Source of the DNA: Sinotaia quadrata
Taxonomy: Eukaryota > Mollusca > Gastropoda > Architaenioglossa > Viviparidae
Length of the DNA stretch: 64,000 nucleotides
Direction: 5' to 3'
Assembly: GCA_028829895.1 (NCBI GenBank)
Contig: CM054178.1
Span: 68,835,835-68,899,834 of the forward strand
The notes beneath the pieces are model-generated. The model had not been told where the DNA came from, did not search any database, and worked only from the letters and a program-made list of their open reading frames with translations. The first letter of the stretch is position 1; each line of letters opens with the position of its first letter. Positions 9,900 to 61,799 of this stretch are shown in pieces. The translations under genes and the position numbers were made by a program.

Positions 9900-10910
9900 T
9901 TTACGAAAATAACATTTTCTTATACAGAATATTTTACTCTTTTCTGTTTGGCAATAAAATTTGAATAAATTATGTAAGTAATATTCTGTCCAAATAGAAT
10001 ATTCATCACTAACAAACTAGTTCTACTTTGGCCATTTTCTTTTTGTAGTGGCAGTCACAATGTTCAAGAAAAATCTGAAAAAAGAGTTGTCTCTCACATT
10101 GCTAGTCAATGATGTATATATGCCATCCATTCTTCACCGGGGACGAGAGGGTGAGGGAGGGAGACTGATGCCTTTAACCAACCGTCAAATCATATCTTGG
10201 ATCAGTTTTGGAATTTTATGCTACAGATTCGGGAACAACTTTTACGTCAAGCATGAAAATTAATTAAATGGCTGCTATTGGTTTACTGATTGTGTTTACA
10301 GACTTCAAAGTCGAAGTCTTGTGCCAAGAAGTAGCGTGCTCCTGTCAGACTTTCACCGCACATATGAGGTCATGACAACATACGGGGTGGGGTGGGGGTG
10401 GGTAGGACACACAGTGCACTTTTTTACGTTGTAGGAGTGCCACTTTACGTAACTACACTGTTCTCTGTACTTGCGCCTCCATTCATTGCATTTCTGAACT
10501 ACTTGAGATACCCCCCCAAAAAAAAAAACAACAATTTTTTTTAACAAAATCCTCCACATACCTATGACAGTCCGGACTTCATCTTTGTTGTAAACACTTG
10601 TTCTCTCACAGCTGCTAGTCCAAGTTTTACATTTCTGCGTGAAATTCATTATGATTGTAATCTCGGGTATAATTATACCACAAAGTTAGATTTATAGTCA
10701 GATTGGCATTCATTATGGATTCATTATGGCTCCAATACGCCATTGTGCATATTGTGAAGATAAGCATGAAGATTGTAATTAGAATGGGTAACTCAGGACT
10801 TTCGTTAGTAGAATGAATTAACATAATTTTCAAAGTAACAAACATTTTTTAAAGAATGTTATTTTAATGCTCTTACATTATATATCATGCTGATTCGCTA
10901 TTTTCACCAG
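9900..10910. other. Sequence upstream of the first EF-hand exon; no exon recognised
   Basis: I looked for the missing N-terminal exon of the EF-hand gene. It should end in one spare base before GT. A pyrimidine-rich AG lies at 10046-10047, followed by a Lys-rich frame, but that frame does not resemble an EF-hand N-terminus and its possible donor is in the wrong phase. The true upstream exon is outside the window or too short to recognise. Confidence 0.4.
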
Positions 10911-11054
10911 AGATCAAGAGGACATTTTCTATGTTCGACAAAGATGGAAATGGGCACATAACTCGCCATGAACTTCGCAATGTGGTGCGCATGCTCGGAC
11001 AGTTCATGTCGGAAGCTGAGCTTGAGCAAATGATTGAACGAGCAGACTGTGACG
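10911..11054 (+). CDS. Calmodulin-like EF-hand protein, exon carrying EF-hand 1 and half of EF-hand 2
   Basis: This is an internal exon of a Ca2+-binding sensor of the calmodulin/troponin-C type. It starts after ttttcaccag (two bases finish a codon, probably Glu). It reads IKRTFSMF, then the first loop DKDGNGHITRHE, which has canonical D1, D3, N5, G6, I8 and E12. The exiting helix and the entering helix of the second EF-hand (EAELEQMIERA) follow. The second loop starts D-C-D and is interrupted by the donor gacg|gtatgt in phase 1. The exon at 23990 resumes it as A-S-G-T-I-D-F-E-E. From the family, the protein should bind Ca2+ through helix-loop-helix pairs and regulate partner proteins; the partner is unknown. 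The N-terminal exon or exons are missing. A typical calmodulin has 149 residues; about 140 are covered here. Confidence 0.95.
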
Positions 11055-11074
11055 GTATGTCGTTATTGTTAGTG

Positions 11075-11086
11075 AAGAGAGAGAGA

Positions 11087-23863: not shown

Positions 23864-24009
23864 GATATTTATTATTCACGCTTATTTACTTACAAGTTTG
23901 CTTTTTTGTTTTGTAGCAAGTAGCACTATAGCCTTTGATATTTACTATTCACGCTTATTTACTTACAAGTTTGCTTTTTTGTTTTGTAGCAAGTGGCACT
24001 ATAGACTTC
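23864..24009 (+). repeat. 73-bp tandem duplication of a 3' splice site
   Basis: Positions 23864-23936 and 23937-24009 are near-identical. Each holds the pyrimidine tract gcttttttgttttgtag and the first bases of the exon (caagtagcactatag against caagtggcactatag). The upstream acceptor ends at 23916 and the downstream one at 23989. Only the downstream site keeps the EF-hand frame. Splicing to the upstream site would add 73 bases and reach TAA at 24036-24038. Confidence 0.95.
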
Positions 24010-24235
24010 GAGGAGTTCCTGCCCTTGATTGCTGCTAAAATGCGAGACAACACAGCCAAGGACAAAGAGATGCGAGACGCCTTTCGCGCCTTCGATCAAA
24101 ATGGCGATGGTTTTATCTCGGTGAGCGAATTACGGCGAGCCATGTCTAAAATGGGTCAGCAGTTAACGGACGCTGAGATCGAGGCCATCATTCGAGACGT
24201 AGATAAAGATGGCGACGGTTATGTTAATTACGAAG
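23990..24235 (+). CDS. Calmodulin-like EF-hand protein, exon carrying the rest of EF-hand 2 through most of EF-hand 4
   Basis: With the phase-1 junction from 11054, this exon completes the second loop (D-C-D-A-S-G-T-I-D-F-E-E). It continues with FLPLIAAKMRDN and the central linker. The third EF-hand loop is DQNGDGFISVSE and the fourth starts DKDGDGYVNYE. All metal-coordinating positions (1, 3, 5, 6, 8, 12) are occupied by acceptable residues, so all four hands look functional. The helix between (LRRAMSKMGQQLTDAEIEA) is typical of the calmodulin/troponin-C superfamily. The donor gaag|gtaaag is phase 1 and splits the codon for Glu12 of loop 4, which the 27075 exon completes. The intron before it is about 12.9 kb. 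Confidence 0.96.
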
Positions 24236-24595
24236 GTAAAGTGAAATAAGTTTAATCCAGCAAGCATGAGCTAAAGTGTTAGGGATGTTGAGGTGTGAAC
24301 GAAATGTAGAAGAATGTCCAAATAGGTTCTCTTCCGTATATACTAGTGGGCAAATGCAAGCCTTCTTGTAAATAACTATATACTTTCAACCTTGTAAATA
24401 ACTATATTCTTTGTAAGCAGGTTTGCAAGTCTGTTCCACTTTCATCACTTACAAATAAGAGGCATGTAAGCAGCCATACAAATGTGTTCTACATACATTA
24501 GTGTAAAAATAACTAACGAGTTATAGAGAGGTCCAGTGACTAGCGTCCTACTGATCGGGTATGCTTAACGACATTTAATAGATGTAAGAAACAAA

Positions 24596-34469: not shown

Positions 34470-34509
34470 ATGGCGCGCCTAATCTCGTTCGTTCTTGTTT
34501 TGTCGTTCG
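34470..34509 (+). CDS. Cys-doublet secreted protein, exon 1 (signal peptide)
   Basis: An ATG with G at +4 opens 13 codons (MARLISFVLVLSF) and one spare base before the strong donor ttcg|gtaagt. The spare G joins 'tc' at 38089 to make Val14 without a frameshift. The joined N-terminus MARLISFVLVLSFVHVNA is a typical secretory signal: one Arg, a hydrophobic core, and Val and Ala at -3 and -1. Cleavage is probably after Ala18. The exon is short, so the call rests on the hydrophobic content, the donor and the phase match with exon 2. The intron to exon 2 is about 3.6 kb. The 5'UTR extent is unknown. Confidence 0.78.
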
Positions 34510-36215
34510 GTAAGTATGAATTGAATTCAATTTCATATTATTTATAACATTGCTTTCATCGAATTTCGCATTATTTTTGTATCAGCATAAATGTTGTCAT
34601 TATCGTCTTCGTCGTTTTAATCGTCATCATCACCACCTTATTGTATCATATTCAAATATTTTATATACCTTTTCGTCAAGTATTTATCTTTTTTTATTTC
34701 TCCTTAGTTTTCCCCAAACATGTAGTTTTCGTATTCATCGCATTCTTATCATTAGTTACCTTCAACACCCCAGCCCACCCTCAATCCGCGAACCCAGGTG
34801 TCAGCAAAATTAGCATCCGTTCCATTATCACAACTATCATCGTTGTTGCGTCCTATCATCGTAGCCATTGACAATGCAGGTAACAGAATCCTAACTGTAA
34901 CTATTAAAATTATCTTATTGTAACTTTCGTTACTGTCATTTGTATTTTTATTAATGCCTGTCTCATCGTGTCACATAGTTCACATAGGACACAGTAGGAG
35001 AATGTTGCAACTAAGCCTTTCTTGGCAGGGCTCCAAGTTGTCTCCGGTCGCGAAATCAGCGTTTGCTGGCAGTAGACATTGTGAATACAGCGGTCAGTCA
35101 ATCCATCAGACCTCACTCTAATCAGCGGGCCCCAAACTATCAAACATTATAAAACATAAATAAACAAATAGCGACTAGGAGTTTCATAACAGTAATGCTT
35201 TACGTGCAGCGTGGCGAGGAGTCAGTGGATAACTCTGAAATTGACTACTAAGAGTTATTTTTCCCCTTTTGTTTATTGGATATTGTCATAGTCTCCTCTC
35301 TGTAACTGTAGACATAAAGATTTTATCTTGCGAGTCTCATAAGATTTTTTTTAAAGTATCTGCATCACGCGAGATACTGAAAATGTCTTATTTATTTTTT
35401 TTTAAATTGAAACAGTAGACAGAAATGTTGTTTCATTGTTGGACTTCACCTATAATGGCTGGAGTTAATTCTTGTTTAGAAGGAAACCTATTTTATATAC
35501 CACGTGACTATAAGTAGATTACTCTGAAAATGAATTAGAGGAATTGTTGTTTGTTTATATACTAATATGTAAACATCTCTATCGCTGTTTCAATGCTTAA
35601 ATATAAAACACTCAGTTGTAAAAGAATTGTAATTCATTTATATACTAATACTCGAGGCCACTTTCTATGCTTAATATGAAACACTTAATACTGAAAGTAA
35701 CTGCAGTTCTGTTGTGCACTGAACATTATAGATCAGTGTTTTAATATTTAAATAATAAACATTTGGTACTGAAAAATTCATTAACATCGGAATAGAGGCT
35801 TGCCATCTATATGTGTATAACTGTCGTATTATTTTCTATTAATCTTTCACCTTACTGTTTGAATAAGACTAGGCGAGCAAGGCTTCAGGACAACAATCAT
35901 CCACTAGTTACTAGCAGGTTAATAACTACTGCCTGAGATAATCATCTTTATAATGTTTCTGATTGGTTGCAATTTTCGTTGACTCTCCGCTTGTTTTTTT
36001 TTTTGTTTTTTTGTTTTGTTTGGTCCAGCGTTAATGTCATCATAGTCCTATGTCCAAAATCCAATACAGTGCACTTAGACTGCCATAGAATGAGGTCATA
36101 TGAGTTAAGAGTGCACACCCACTTCGTTTTTCGCTAGTTTCTGGTTACGGCTGCGCTGCATGGCTGGTAAATTATCACTTTTCACCAGTCAGCAGCTCCA
36201 CTGACAGATCACGTT
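34510..36215. other. Intron 1 of the Cys-doublet gene, AT-rich part
   Basis: A TTTTTG-rich stretch occurs near 35990-36030. No further exon is needed by phase and none is seen. Confidence 0.55.
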
Positions 36216-36219
36216 ATGA

Positions 36220-36691
36220 ACACGTGTGTGTTTATGTATGATGTATGTGGTGTGTTCTTTGTGTGTTTGGTATGCGTATATGTGTTTTCTGTGTATGTGT
36301 GCGTTTTCAGTGTATGTGTGTGTGGTGTGTGTATGTTATGTTTGGTTGTGTGTGCATGCGCTTGTGTGATATATATGCATGTGTAGTATGTGTAGTTATG
36401 GATGCGTGTGTGGTATGTGTATATGGTATGCGTGTGTGTGGTGTGTATGTACGTGCATATGTACTTATAGATGTGTTTATGCGTGTGTGTGATACGTAGT
36501 ATATATGTGTGTATACATGTGTGGTATGTATGTATATGTGTGTATATGTATGCGTACGTGTTTGATGTGTGTGTGTATGTATGTGGTGTGGATATGTGTG
36601 GTGTTGTGGATACGTGTATGTATATGTGTGGTGTTGTGGATACGTGTATGTATGTGTGTGGTGTGTATATGTGTGCATGTGTGTGGTTTGG

Positions 36692-36723
<32 letters not shown>

Positions 36724-36830
36724 TGTGGATATGTGTGTATGTGTGTGTGTGTGTTGTGGATATGTGTTTTTATGGATGTGGTGTGGATATGTGTGTGGAG
36801 TGGATATGTGTGTGTGTGAGGAGATGGGGG
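36220..36830. repeat. GT/GTAT-rich low-complexity tract, ~600 bp
   Basis: Imperfect tgtgtggtgtg, gtatatgtgtg and ggatatgtgtg units. Around 36600-36660 a roughly 36-bp unit (tgtggtgttgtggatacgtg...) is duplicated. The Cys/Val-rich frames on plus and the Thr/His-rich frames on minus are low-complexity artefacts. The tract lies in intron 1 of the Cys-doublet gene. Confidence 0.93.
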
Positions 36831-37495
36831 GATAGGGAAGCTAAATTTAAATTTTAAAATAAGAAATATAACATATGTAAGACGCAGCATCCACTCAAAA
36901 ATAAAAATGAACGTTAAAATGCACGTTAAAATACATATATAAAAAAAATAAACTTAGAAAATCAAAACGACCTCATCCAACATCCAACACTAAAATGTAT
37001 AGATTTATTTACTCTATTTCTGTCAACTGATAAGAAATGGCGCGACCGAGATTACTGGGCCAAAACAAGCGCGCGAAGGAAACGAAAAGCACTTTACTGC
37101 AAGCTCATTCCGGGTATGGGAAATGTCAGTGGGTTCCCTCCCTTGGGAGCCAGGAAGATCTGTCGAGCGCGCTGAAAATTCTCTCTAGCTAAAGGAGGTC
37201 AGTAGTGTTGATGATGACGGTAGTGTTGTTTCGGTTAATTGGAGTGCTACGTTTGCAAAGTGCACGAGGTGCTAACACGCTCACAAGAGCTCTAACTTAA
37301 AACAATATTTTATTTTAAATATATTTTATTTTAAAAAATCGGTGACATATAGCGGATAGTAAGATGATACTCAGTGAAGGTACTGTGACGTCAGTGAGCA
37401 TTTCTGACGTCATGATGATGATTGATGACGAAGGAAAAAGAAGAAGATAAGAAGGTGGCCGAGATAATAAATCATCAACACACAATTGCAAAGAA
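36831..37495. other. Intron 1 of the Cys-doublet gene, unassigned
   Basis: No repeat or exon recognised. Confidence 0.4.
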
Positions 37496-37499
37496 GATA

Positions 37500-37632
37500 A
37501 TGATGAAGAAGCTGAATATGATAGTGATATATTATGATGATAATGATGATGATGATGACGACGACGATGATGATGTTATATATGCTGCATGGATACACTA
37601 CCACACGATGACGGTGATGACAGTGATGATGT
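37500..37632. repeat. (GAT/GAC)n tract
   Basis: Runs of gatgatgatgacgacgacga, with looser continuation downstream. Confidence 0.9.
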
Positions 37633-38088
37633 TCTTGTTGTTGATATTTTTTATAATGCTTGCTGCATACACTCTTTAACGTAAAATGAAACTCTAAGTG
37701 ATGAAGATAATAATATTTCATCGGTTTATTTATTACTTCACGCATTTCTATAGGCGCCTTTAGTTATAAGTACACGCGTGTGTCATTGAATAAAAAGTTG
37801 TTTCGCTCTTTAATGACTGTGTGTGACAATTTACTGAGATTAGATGTGGTTGAATAACTTGTCAGTTTTCTACCCTACATGTTGTTATTACGAATGAATA
37901 TACAACTTTAGTAAAAGCTTTGATCTAGACGGATATTAAACTGATTTCAAGAGATATATTACTCATTTCGTCAGACGAACATACATGTACTTTAAAAGAC
38001 GTCCTTAGTGTTCATGGTTATAACATCTGCAACTTCACAACGTTACACACGCACATACAAATGTTGATCTTTTCTTATTAATTTCAAG

Positions 38089-39335
38089 TCCACGTGAACG
38101 CCAACCAGGACGTAAGCCTCGACAATGAACATTTTCAGCACCGTGAATGCTGCTTGACGTCAGACCCCCCTGCCTGCTGCGCAGCCCTTCCATTGCCCTC
38201 CGCCACGCATGATTGGAACGAGACATCACGAAGCGCGCTAATCAGCTGCTGTGGCTTCCGGATGAAAAGATCGGCTTACTCGGCATTCGCTCGCAGCGAT
38301 GGCGCGCCAGTGTACCGCGCAACGACGGACTGCTGCCGCTCAACTTCCGCGTCCTTCGAGCGGCCATCTTGCTGCAGCTCTTCCGCATCTACCATTCGTG
38401 CCATGTGCTGCGTATCAGTGTACCAGCCCAACGACGCCCTCGACAGGCAGCAGCTTGCTCCGGAGCCCGAGGAACCGCCACCGCCACCACCGTCGTCATG
38501 CTGCGATGCTGCCGTCAAACTGTCCTGCTGCATGGCGGCAGCAGCAGCAGCCGTCCGTCCGCAGTGCTGTTCTTCATCCAGGCCGGACACCAGTCTTTCT
38601 GCTCAGAGGTCTGACGTCAGTCGCGCAGAGGCTGAGTGCTGTTCAGTGCACATGAACTTCCGGGACACATGTTGTTCCAGGTTCGCTTCCGTACATCTGG
38701 TCGCGCGCTGCTGTCTGCCGCCCGAAGGAGTGGTACAGCTACCGCAGTACGAGTGCTGTTCTACTCCATCATCCCTGAGGGAATCGTGTTGTGAGGCAGG
38801 TTTTGCTGCGGGTGCTTCTGCTGTTCATTGCTGCACGGCTCCAACTACACCTATCCCGACGCCGGCGCCGGCGCCGAGAAGTGACTGCTGCTCTGCTTCC
38901 GCCCTCAGACCCGTCTGTTGTGTCTCGTCGTTCACAGCACAAGCACGCTCATCTTGCTGCCAGACGGTGCAGTACCCCGTGCACGAACCGTGCTGCAGCT
39001 CTTCTTCAATGGTGGACTTGTCTCGGTGTTGCGCTGTTACTGTTGTGTTCTCGCCCTGCTGCGCCGCACGGCAAAGCCCCGAACGGTTGATCAGTGCAAC
39101 ACCAACCACCACTACGACAGCTCGACCTGCCTATGTTCAGGTCAGCTGTTGCTCTTCTTCCTCTCCAGCATACCGGGACCAATGCTGCGGGACGGCGTCC
39201 CCCCAACTGGTCCTCCAGTTGCCGTGCTGCACTACCTCCAGAGCGTACGTGATGGCCCAGCAGGCAAGACCGAACTGCTGTTCGTCGTCTGGTGCGTCCA
39301 CGGCTGATGTAGTTCGCGCGCCGGCGCCAGTGCAG
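38089..39335 (+). CDS. Cys-doublet secreted protein, exon 2 (residues 14-429, 25 CC doublets)
   Basis: This is the main exon of a predicted extracellular protein with no family I recognise. It begins after tattaatttcaag; an in-frame stop at 38079 rules out upstream extension. The mature N-terminus is followed from residue 34 by 25 Cys-Cys doublets. No cysteine stands alone. After an irregular first group, doublets come in threes: CC-x(7-11)-CC-x(8-12)-CC, then a longer Ser/Pro/Ala/Thr-rich linker. The middle doublet is usually preceded by hydrophobic-Arg-x-x (for example LRESCC, FRDTCC, YRDQCC). Linkers include runs of six Pro, seven Ala and five Thr. An N-glycosylation sequon (NET) lies near residue 57. 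The exon is much more GC-rich than its AT-rich surroundings. The donor is cag|gttggc at 39336, or alternatively agc|gtaaat at 39345, both phase 0. The frame stays open in the intron to 39620, but there cysteines become single, so the repeat ends at the donor. Extracellular location is inferred from the signal peptide. Structural, adhesive or defence roles are possible but unproven. Confidence 0.88.
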
Positions 39336-39980
39336 GTTGGCAGCGTAAATGGTTATGATCGGTTTTGTGTGGCTGACGGAGATACTGCATTAGGGGACTG
39401 CACTCTCTCTTTTCTATGTCTCTGTCTTTCTATCCCTCTCCATTCTGTTCTCCTTCAGCTTTCTTCTTTATCTCTCCAACATCTATACCTCTCTCTTTTT
39501 CGTTCGTTCGTTCATCCTGTATCCTTCTTTATTGTTTGTACTTTAGTCTCTCTGTCTGTCTCTTATCTCTCAACATTTATGCATAGAAATATGAATGATT
39601 TCTTCGCAGTGTTTATATAATTGGGGGCAGCTATGGGTGAATATGGATATACCGTTGGAATAAAAACATCCAAACGCATTTAAAGCACACGGTTTGTTTG
39701 CTAATTCAAAAGTCAACGAGGCGTGTGGAGGTGTGTGCTTTCAGCAGATTTTAAAATTCCTGCAAAGAGTGCAATAAGTCCAGACAGCCCTTTCAAATTG
39801 AAACGAATGAAATCTCAGCGAAATCTACCGGTTTCGTTCTGTATTTAAACGATGGAAAGTCGTGCAATTAGCACTGCTAACTGATAGGTAAATCACGAGT
39901 GCAACAGTAAGAATGAGGCGATATCAATAAATACTATTTAGCATAGCCTTGTATATTTTTTTCTAATTTGTATTTTCTAG
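39336..39980. other. Intron 2 of the Cys-doublet gene
   Basis: The start is pyrimidine-rich and the end is tattttctag. No CC-encoding segment is seen inside. Intron retention would add up to 95 mostly hydrophobic residues before a stop at 39618-39620. Confidence 0.7.
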
Positions 39981-40502
39981 AGAACGGCCGTTTTGAGTTG
40001 CTGCCTCAGGACGGGGTCAATGAGAGAGTCGTGCTGCTCCAGTCAAGCCCAGACGGACACCCCGATCCGTTGTTGTTCCGGCTACGTTCTCGAGCGCGTG
40101 GACTTTCCTCAGCACGAACAGCTAGCTCCTTCCCAGCCTACCTGCTGCTCCAGAAGCAGCGAGTCTGACGCACGCAGCTGCTGCATGTCGTACGCTGTCT
40201 CTGTTCGACCTCAGTGCTGTTCGTCCTACTTGGTGTCGTTCCACCCGGCGCCGCTGCAAGACGCCGGCCCGAACTGCTGCACCGGTACCGTACTAGTGCG
40301 GGCCCAGTGCTGCGCTGCCAACGCTTTCCAGTCGTCAACCGCTAGCTGCTGCACTTCGTCTGCGTCCCAGTGGGTTGCAGCACCGATCCAGCAACCCCTT
40401 CCGTCCTGCTGCCATACTCCTGCGTCAATCCGAGTCCCCTGCTGCATAAGTTCGAGCTACGCGGCGCCGTGTTGTCAATCGATGAGGCGTCGATACCGAT
40501 AG
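39981..40502 (+). CDS. Cys-doublet secreted protein, exon 3 (residues 430-602, 12 CC doublets, stop)
   Basis: The exon starts after tttgtattttctag in phase 0 (RTAVLSCC...) and ends with TAG at 40500-40502. It holds twelve CC doublets forming exactly four three-doublet modules. Intra-module spacings are 9/11, 10/10, 9/11 and 9/8, and linkers are 22, 18 and 18 residues. This is the clearest display of the module. No unpaired Cys is present. Arg-x-x-CC recurs (MRESCC, VRPQCC, VRAQCC, IRVPCC). The protein ends in a basic tail, QSMRRRYR. The same module, composition and GC content as exon 2 tie the two exons together, and the total coding length (1809 bases) is an exact multiple of three. Confidence 0.88.
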   Translation, partial: RTAVLSCCLRTGSMRESCCSSQAQTDTPIRCCSGYVLERVDFPQHEQLAPSQPTCCSRSSESDARSCCMSYAVSVRPQCCSSYLVSFHPAPLQDAGPNCCTGTVLVRAQCCAANAFQSSTASCCTSSASQWVAAPIQQPLPSCCHTPASIRVPCCISSSYAAPCCQSMRRRYR

Positions 40503-40991
40503 ATGATAGAGGACGGTGAAGGAAATGGCATTAAAAAGAAATCCATTTTATCGGGCATCCATAGTACTTTGTTTCTTTAAGCCCTTCCTTTCATGTTCCA
40601 GATGACAGCGAAATGCTTACAACTCAGTAAGCAATTACAACCGCCAATAATACTATTGAGAGGCGTGATGATGATAACAAAAATGATAATAATATCATCA
40701 TTGACAATGATGAGAGCAGAGGACTGCAATCTTGATACCATGAATGACGATTATAATATCAATATCTTACCCTTAATGATAGTGCATAATTTGCTTCTTT
40801 GATGAAGATAATAATTTTCTTTAAGATTGAAACAGGAATATTAATTATAGAAGTATCCGGTTTTTTACTTTTCATTATCTTTAACAACTTAATTCCGAGT
40901 GCCTTTCTTTTAGTAATATGTCGCACTGACCTAGCCACCTACATCAGCGGTGGTAAGACTAACTGATTCAAATAATCCTCGTCATTAAAAA

Positions 40992-47484: not shown

Positions 47485-47770
47485 GCTACTACTACAATAA
47501 CAAAAACTACTACTACAACACCTACTACTACTACTAGCACGACAACAACAACTATTACTAAACTACAACAACAACAACTTCTACTACTACTACTGCTACT
47601 ATACAGCAACAAAAACTACTAATACAACTGCAAAAACAACCACTACTACAACAATTATTACTGCTACAACAATTACTACAAATACTGCAACTACTACTAT
47701 AACTACTACTACTACAACTACAACTACTACTACAACAGCTACAGCAGCTACTACTAATCTACCAACACTA
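47485..47770. repeat. (ACT/ACA)n trinucleotide-rich tract
   Basis: Imperfect ctactactac and caacaacaac runs. Confidence 0.93.
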
Positions 47771-60894: not shown

Positions 60895-61460
60895 ATATCT
60901 TTAATTTAATTTAATTTAATTTATTAATTTAAAATTAATCGTTTTGGGTAGAACTATGGAGATGATGGGGCCTTTGTCACTAATATATCCCATAATAAGA
61001 CGTCCCTCGATATACAACTGAAGAATTCAGAGAGAAAATTATGTCGTGTTGATCTTAATGGAAAAAAATGATTAACGAATGTTGAATTTCAAGATATTTT
61101 GCAAGAAACATATCATTGGGATATTTTAGTACTTCAACAGGAATATTCCCAATACATTAATAACATTTTAGGACAAAGAATAATTTGAGAAATTATTAGT
61201 CAACAAGTACTATTTTCAAGCGCATTGATACACAATCCTGACATTCACCAGAGAACATTAGGAAGGAGATATAGTAACATTCATGTTTACGTGTTTACGT
61301 TGACTCTATCTTGAATTCATTCATAGTAACAAAACGTCATTCCCAGAAAAATTATCAAGGACATTTATAAACTCAATCAACCTACAATACTCGTAAACAC
61401 AATTTGTACGAGAAACAAAATGTCATTTTGCCACCAAATGAGTTAGCTCCTCCTCATTTC
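60895..61460. other. Intergenic, unassigned
   Basis: Starts with a (TTTAA)n run at 60900-60925. No exon recognised. Confidence 0.4.
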
Positions 61461-61465
61461 CTTAG

Positions 61466-61530
61466 GCCATCGACGTCATCAGCAAAGCGTAAGTTCATTA
61501 TTGTTCCACCTACAGACATATTGTGTGACG
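61466..61530 (+). CDS. Candidate exon upstream of a small Cys-rich domain
   Basis: The acceptor tcctcatttccttag and donor tgacg|gtaaat bracket 65 bases. In the phase that fits the next exon it reads PSTSSAKRKFIIVPPTDILCD with one spare base. That supplies the first cysteine of the candidate domain. An alternative donor, gc|gtaagt, lies inside at 61489. No signal-peptide exon was found upstream. Confidence 0.3.
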
Positions 61531-61607
61531 GTAAATGTTTGTCTTTAATGTTGTGGAAGAGAATCAACTTTAACAGCGCCATTTTGACTTTAGAGAATGC
61601 ACGAAAC

Positions 61608-61611
<4 letters not shown>

Positions 61612-61691
<80 letters not shown>
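61612..61691. repeat. (CT)n microsatellite, 40 units
   Basis: A pure CT run ending 16 bases before the AG of the next candidate exon, so it would serve as an extremely long polypyrimidine tract. Confidence 0.98.
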
Positions 61692-61694
<3 letters not shown>

Positions 61695-61707
61695 CCATGC
61701 TTTTCAG

Positions 61708-61799
61708 TTTACGGTCGAAGACGTGAGGATTTCTGTGACTTAAACCCCACATACTGCTGCAACGAAAGCTCAGAAATAGGAGTGTGTTGCAAACAATGA
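61708..61799 (+). CDS. Candidate terminal exon, small Cys-rich domain
   Basis: After tgccatgcttttcag, a phase-1 continuation of 61466-61530 reads V-Y-G-R-R-R and then cysteines. Counting the Cys in the previous exon, the spacing is C-x10-C-x6-CC-x8-CC. The frame stops with TGA right after the last pair (CCKQ). The C-C-CC-CC spacing recalls the extracellular six-cysteine region of Shisa/CYYR1/VOPP1-like proteins, but no transmembrane segment follows here, so a small secreted peptide is equally possible. AATAAA occurs at 61945. The call is tentative: two matching phases and Cys spacing, but no signal peptide. Confidence 0.35.

Follow-up and report, generated by a model that had tools for sequence, protein, structure and literature searches.

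A predicted secreted protein of the gastropod Sinotaia quadrata with three-doublet cysteine modules and a galaxin-like architecture without recognisable galaxin sequence

Proteins built of tandem vicinal cysteine pairs (di-cysteines, or CC doublets) are skeletal matrix proteins in corals (PMC2726143) and sponges (PMC12419799), according to the excerpts of these papers, and of the others cited below by PMC number, on which we draw. Galaxin holds about 20 such pairs (PMC4878875); Amgalaxin-like 2 of the coral Acropora millepora is a secreted protein of 582 residues with a tandem 41-residue repeat bearing three di-Cys motifs (PMC2726143); and the calcarins of sponges carry 10-23 di-cysteines, with a typical spacing of 10-15 residues and a predicted hairpin-disulfide ladder (PMC12419799). 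Galaxin-like proteins have been reported from molluscs and annelids (PMC7853314), a galaxin homologue is present among the shell proteins of the gastropod Crepidula (PMC9365450), and the galaxin-like protein cysrichin participates in shell-layer formation in the pearl mussel Hyriopsis (PMC10045328). Whether the skeletal di-cysteine arrays of corals, sponges and molluscs have a common origin is an open question (PMC12419799). Here we describe a gene predicted in a window of 64,000 nt on contig CM054178.1 of the snail Sinotaia quadrata (contig of 147.7 Mb in a 984 Mb genome; plain coordinates below are positions within the window). The three-doublet layout of its predicted product resembles that of galaxins and is thus not unprecedented; galaxin sequence appears to be absent from it.

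Predicted splicing of three exons with GT-AG ends and compatible phases yields 602 codons plus a stop. The features of the gene are as follows.
34470..34509, + strand: exon 1, carrying the start codon and the greater part of a signal-peptide-like stretch; GT donor, phase fitting exon 2
38089..39335, + strand: exon 2, which completes the signal region and encodes modules 1-8 and an orphan doublet, 25 CC doublets in all; AG acceptor, GT donor, open frame
38331..38411, + strand: module 2, a typical one, from its first to its third doublet (CC-x11-CC-x10-CC)
39981..40502, + strand: exon 3, with modules 9-12, 12 CC doublets and the stop codon; AG acceptor, in phase
40530..40535, + strand: possible polyadenylation signal ATTAAA from a motif scan, starting 28 bases past the final base of the stop codon

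The exon ends, phases and counts verify the three-exon model of about 602 residues and 37 CC doublets put forward in a preliminary description of this DNA, and the signal peptide claimed there finds support, as judged by eye, in a signal-like start that begins in exon 1 and continues into exon 2. All 74 Cys of the product lie within its 37 doublets and none stands singly; 2,000 composition-preserving shuffles averaged 8 doublets and never exceeded 15. When exon 2 was simulated with a first-order Markov model (2,000 runs), no frame held more than seven CC, against the 25 observed in frame. All four Cys-codon pairs are in use over the 37 doublets (23 TGCTGC, 7 TGCTGT, 5 TGTTGT and 2 TGTTGC), which argues against their being a simple DNA repeat or microsatellite. 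The GC content of exon 2 is 0.61, compared with 0.30-0.45 in the rest of the window, taken in 2-kb stretches. One might suppose that there is no gene here, but either a pseudogene or a GC-rich stretch that happens to be open, given that no homologue was found in protein-database searches and that the longest open frame in the simulated exons was 414 codons, nearly the full length of exon 2; the length of the open reading frame is consequently weak evidence for a gene, and we have dropped it as an argument. The doublet count, the mixed codon pairs and the predicted exons lying in phase with splice sites nevertheless make this supposition hardly worth entertaining. Judged by sequence, the gene is real and unusual, its exon junctions being predictions.

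Within the product the doublets are arranged in a module, CC-x(7-11)-CC-x(8-12)-CC, of which 12 copies together with one orphan doublet at residue 410 cover all 37 doublets. Eight modules fall in exon 2 and four in exon 3, and the doublet positions thereby confirm the layout first proposed (about eight modules plus an extra doublet in exon 2, four modules in exon 3). Module 1 departs from the pattern (gaps of 7 and 22); the linkers are variable, some being Pro- or Thr-rich, and that joining modules 6 and 7 has 10 residues only. From start to start the modules are 35-56 residues apart, not counting module 1 (61) or the interval containing the orphan doublet (69). Period-three phasing of the doublets, allowing one slip, fits 34 of the 36 gaps and was matched by none of 20,000 permutations, each given its best slip, in support of the earlier proposal of a repeating three-doublet secreted protein. 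Arg is found three residues ahead of the second doublet in 8 of the 12 modules, and exon 3 aligned to the part encoded by exons 1 and 2 with a score of 205. The maximum among 500 shuffles in which Cys was held fixed was 182, suggesting that residues other than Cys are also conserved between modules. The gene probably grew by duplication of the repeat followed by divergence.

The preliminary description had held that no such repeat was described, a statement that fails in view of the three di-Cys motifs in each repeat of Amgalaxin-like 2 (PMC2726143); with the galaxins and calcarins also known as di-cysteine arrays, the architecture has precedents. Likened by description, Amgalaxin-like 2 and the present protein share secretion, predicted for the latter, and three di-Cys per repeat. 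They differ in that the coral protein has an acidic domain, whereas 20 Asp and 19 Glu are spread among the 602 residues here with no acidic block visible by eye, and in that its repeats are more alike than those of Amgalaxin, whereas the modules of the present gene are strongly diverged. The calcarins of Sycon ciliatum likewise have many di-cysteines and no recognised domain save in one calcarin; single Cys flank the region and there is no detailed repeat structure, in contrast to the 37 doublets in three-doublet modules seen here (PMC12419799). Cysrichin of Hyriopsis cumingii is also a Cys- and Ser-rich mollusc protein with di-Cys repeats, but it has 163 residues, one di-Cys in its stated repeat motif and 8.6% Gly (PMC10045328). 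The composition of the present protein (Ser 15%, Ala 12.5%, Cys 12.3%, Pro 9%, Gly 1.8%, Lys 0.3%), rich in Ser, Ala, Cys and Pro and poor in Lys, would suit a crosslinked structural protein. Keratin-associated proteins resemble it in being rich in Cys, Ser, Pro and Arg, in their CC doublets and in crosslinking, but they are intracellular, vertebrate and of much shorter doublet spacing, and no keratin-associated family in Pfam matched the present protein.

Galaxins and the present gene have in common tandem di-cysteine repeats in a protein with a signal-like start, galaxins (Pfam PF24748, Galaxin_repeat) being secreted arrays with doublets 11-15 residues apart. The gene could be a very diverged true galaxin whose canonical repeat acquired an additional, third doublet and longer linkers while its Tyr-Asp motif disappeared, an account that concerns origin and is compatible with a structural function. 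Consistent with it, Galaxin_repeat is the sole Pfam family reported for exon 3 (expectation value, E, 0.017), none of ten Cys-fixed shuffles of that exon matched the family, and three-doublet repeats occur in the coral protein Amgalaxin-like 2 (PMC2726143). The match to exon 3 nonetheless scores 15.5 bits, below the gathering cut-off of 28 bits; the whole protein has no match at E <= 1, nor has any of four pieces of exon 2 at E <= 10; and the locus is missing from a genome-wide PF24748 list drawn up at E <= 10 with 150 of 188 candidates scored. That search listed 142 matches, from which 20 loci, all over the cut-off, were examined by eye, both strands being read for 10 of them. Seven are galaxin-like exons (L024-L028, L037, L038) and one (L041) was assigned to neither class. 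The remaining twelve (L029-L036, L039, L040, L042, L043) were rejected as galaxins because they resemble short-period tandem repeats, so that the Pfam model appears to match Cys-coding minisatellites falsely.

Five hand-picked exons of the same genome (L024-L028) served as galaxin controls. All five match Galaxin_repeat at E <= 0.001 (best 4.9e-28) and show an alternating CC-x11-CC-x(12-15) spacing, a CC-x(3-4)-[YF][DN] motif and single Cys at their ends, three features that the present gene lacks: the motif follows 0 of its 37 doublets, there is no flanking single Cys, and the standard deviation of its doublet gaps is 6.2, compared with 1.0-1.5 in the controls. CC-x(0-1)-G, a further motif of the controls, occurs in four of the 37 doublets. 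Profile-profile comparison with galaxins of the same genome (hhalign) returned probabilities of 4.0 and 4.6% with E of about 0.01. The score of exon 3 against the five galaxins was reached by 15, 91, 4, 204 and 18 of 500 Cys-fixed shuffles, and that of exon 2 by 476, 94, 120, 442 and 336; exon 3 thus stands out for three galaxins and is ordinary for two, and exon 2 is ordinary for all five, a pattern suggestive of weak residual similarity in exon 3. The excess of exon 3 over its shuffles is compatible with remote descent from a galaxin. On these measures the protein does not place among the galaxins, and descent from a true galaxin, while possible, seems to us doubtful. As for a named Cys-rich family of the same spacing, which the preliminary description had considered might account for the protein, galaxins and Amgalaxin-like 2 correspond to it in architecture and none does so in sequence, no family passing its threshold.

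In Pfam and NCBIfam to E 10, lustrin included, no Cys-rich family rose above its cut-off, and the matches below cut-off or of a chance-like kind were, besides Galaxin_repeat, DUF2749 (E 2.4; 0.33 on one piece of exon 2) and TALPID3 (E 9.6). A sequence search of the PDB gave no match. A search of the snail's own genome with exon 2 returned only exon 2 itself, exon 3 and a third match (L003), rejected as a paralogue because it sits in a minisatellite. A scan extended by 100 kb to either side (264,000 bases, of which 2,500 are N) turned up no further gene of this kind, and the only other frame with at least four CC to pass a complexity filter, 47561-47758 on the - strand, was set aside as a trinucleotide repeat. 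A literature search, subscription papers being mostly outside its reach, recognised no paper on this protein.

We think it reasonably probable that the gene encodes a secreted, disulfide-crosslinked extracellular structural protein that works like galaxin without its sequence placing it there; such a product is probably a building material held together by disulfides, not a protein of an entirely new kind. Its resemblance to galaxin is best read as either convergent or very diverged. For the more specific proposal of a mollusc matrix protein that evolved independently rather than from galaxin, with a three-doublet module of its own and a separate origin of di-cysteine crosslinking while galaxins were kept alongside, we see an even chance. 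Under the oxidising conditions of the secretory pathway, each Cys would bond with a Cys of another doublet, since adjacent Cys seldom bond together, and these bonds would fold each module into a compact disulfide knot or ladder. Leftover Cys may bridge separate chains, with the linkers acting as flexible spacers, and the protein would end up as an insoluble crosslinked matrix, for instance in the organic matrix of the shell, the periostracum, the operculum or the egg capsule.

Several observations weigh against this proposal of a crosslinked structural protein. Protein databases held no homologue at E <= 10, 10 and 1 (7,990, 52 and 7,994 candidates, respectively), leaving conservation of the gene unproven. 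The structure predicted for exon 3 alone has a predicted local distance difference test score (pLDDT) of 38 and shows no fold. The preliminary description had suggested predicting the fold of one module; for a module of 33 residues the best of five models reached a pLDDT of 77 (the others 64-66; predicted template modelling score 0.40). It has a helix rather than the calcarin-type hairpin and found no fold match in the PDB; structure prediction neither supports nor refutes the disulfide scheme, and both models are of too low quality to bear on beta-hairpins joined by disulfides between successive doublets, a galaxin feature. Crosslinking would be limited if di-Cys motifs closed upon themselves, as in vitro work cited in PMC2726143 suggests they may.

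The antimicrobial activity of a squid galaxin is a further such point, as it implies that di-Cys proteins may have roles other than structural ones. The present product might by the same token be a secreted antimicrobial or symbiont-shaping protein: this mollusc galaxin, EsGal1, acts on Gram-positive bacteria (PMC5216023), and galaxin was among the genes altered in a study of infection in mussels (PMC7772429). With 602 residues, long low-complexity linkers and a calculated isoelectric point of 7.9, the protein is unlike a compact cationic peptide, and we regard such a role as unlikely. The six Cys of each module match the size of many disulfide-rich peptides and could suggest a precursor cleaved into many three-disulfide peptides, toxin-like or hormone-like. 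Adjacent basic residues form two clusters only, KR at 73 and RRR at 598, so that cleavage sites are absent between most modules, and known peptide families gave no match; we reject this reading as very improbable. Cys doublets are able to bind metals, and a metal-binding or thiol-storage protein might be envisaged on that ground; the signal-peptide-like start, the absence of CxC motifs (all Cys being in doublets) and a spacing of 8-12 residues unlike that of metallothionein make this more improbable still. For the structural protein that we favour, the occurrence of a galaxin architecture without galaxin sequence beside true galaxins in one genome renders convergence directly testable, and its 74 Cys, all in doublets, make it a candidate natural design for disulfide-crosslinked materials.

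One 51-kb stretch of the genome (G000:C5:63702828-63753661) contains at least three galaxin exons of the canonical kind (L025, L026 and L028), with further galaxin exons on contigs C7 and C2, and this mollusc galaxin family would be worth annotating. In the window, upstream of the present gene and on the same (+) strand, two calmodulin-like EF-hand exons lie 13 kb apart at 10868-11080 and 23932-24246 (EF-hand_7, E 7.3e-10 and 6.2e-20). A frame at 61371-61796 (+) combines a TC repeat with a small Cys-rich tail that holds two CC doublets, and has no Pfam match at E <= 0.1. The window is very dense in minisatellites and microsatellites, some of which give long open frames (129 rows, some overlapping, from Tandem Repeats Finder). 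Elsewhere on the same contig, an array of haemocyanin exons (G000:C2:47038876-47246060) comprises 33 matches to PF14830 in about 207 kb, six of them with one internal stop codon, and marks the genome as molluscan. This family, which we take to be a haemocyanin family restricted to molluscs, had no match in 14 control genomes of unstated kind.

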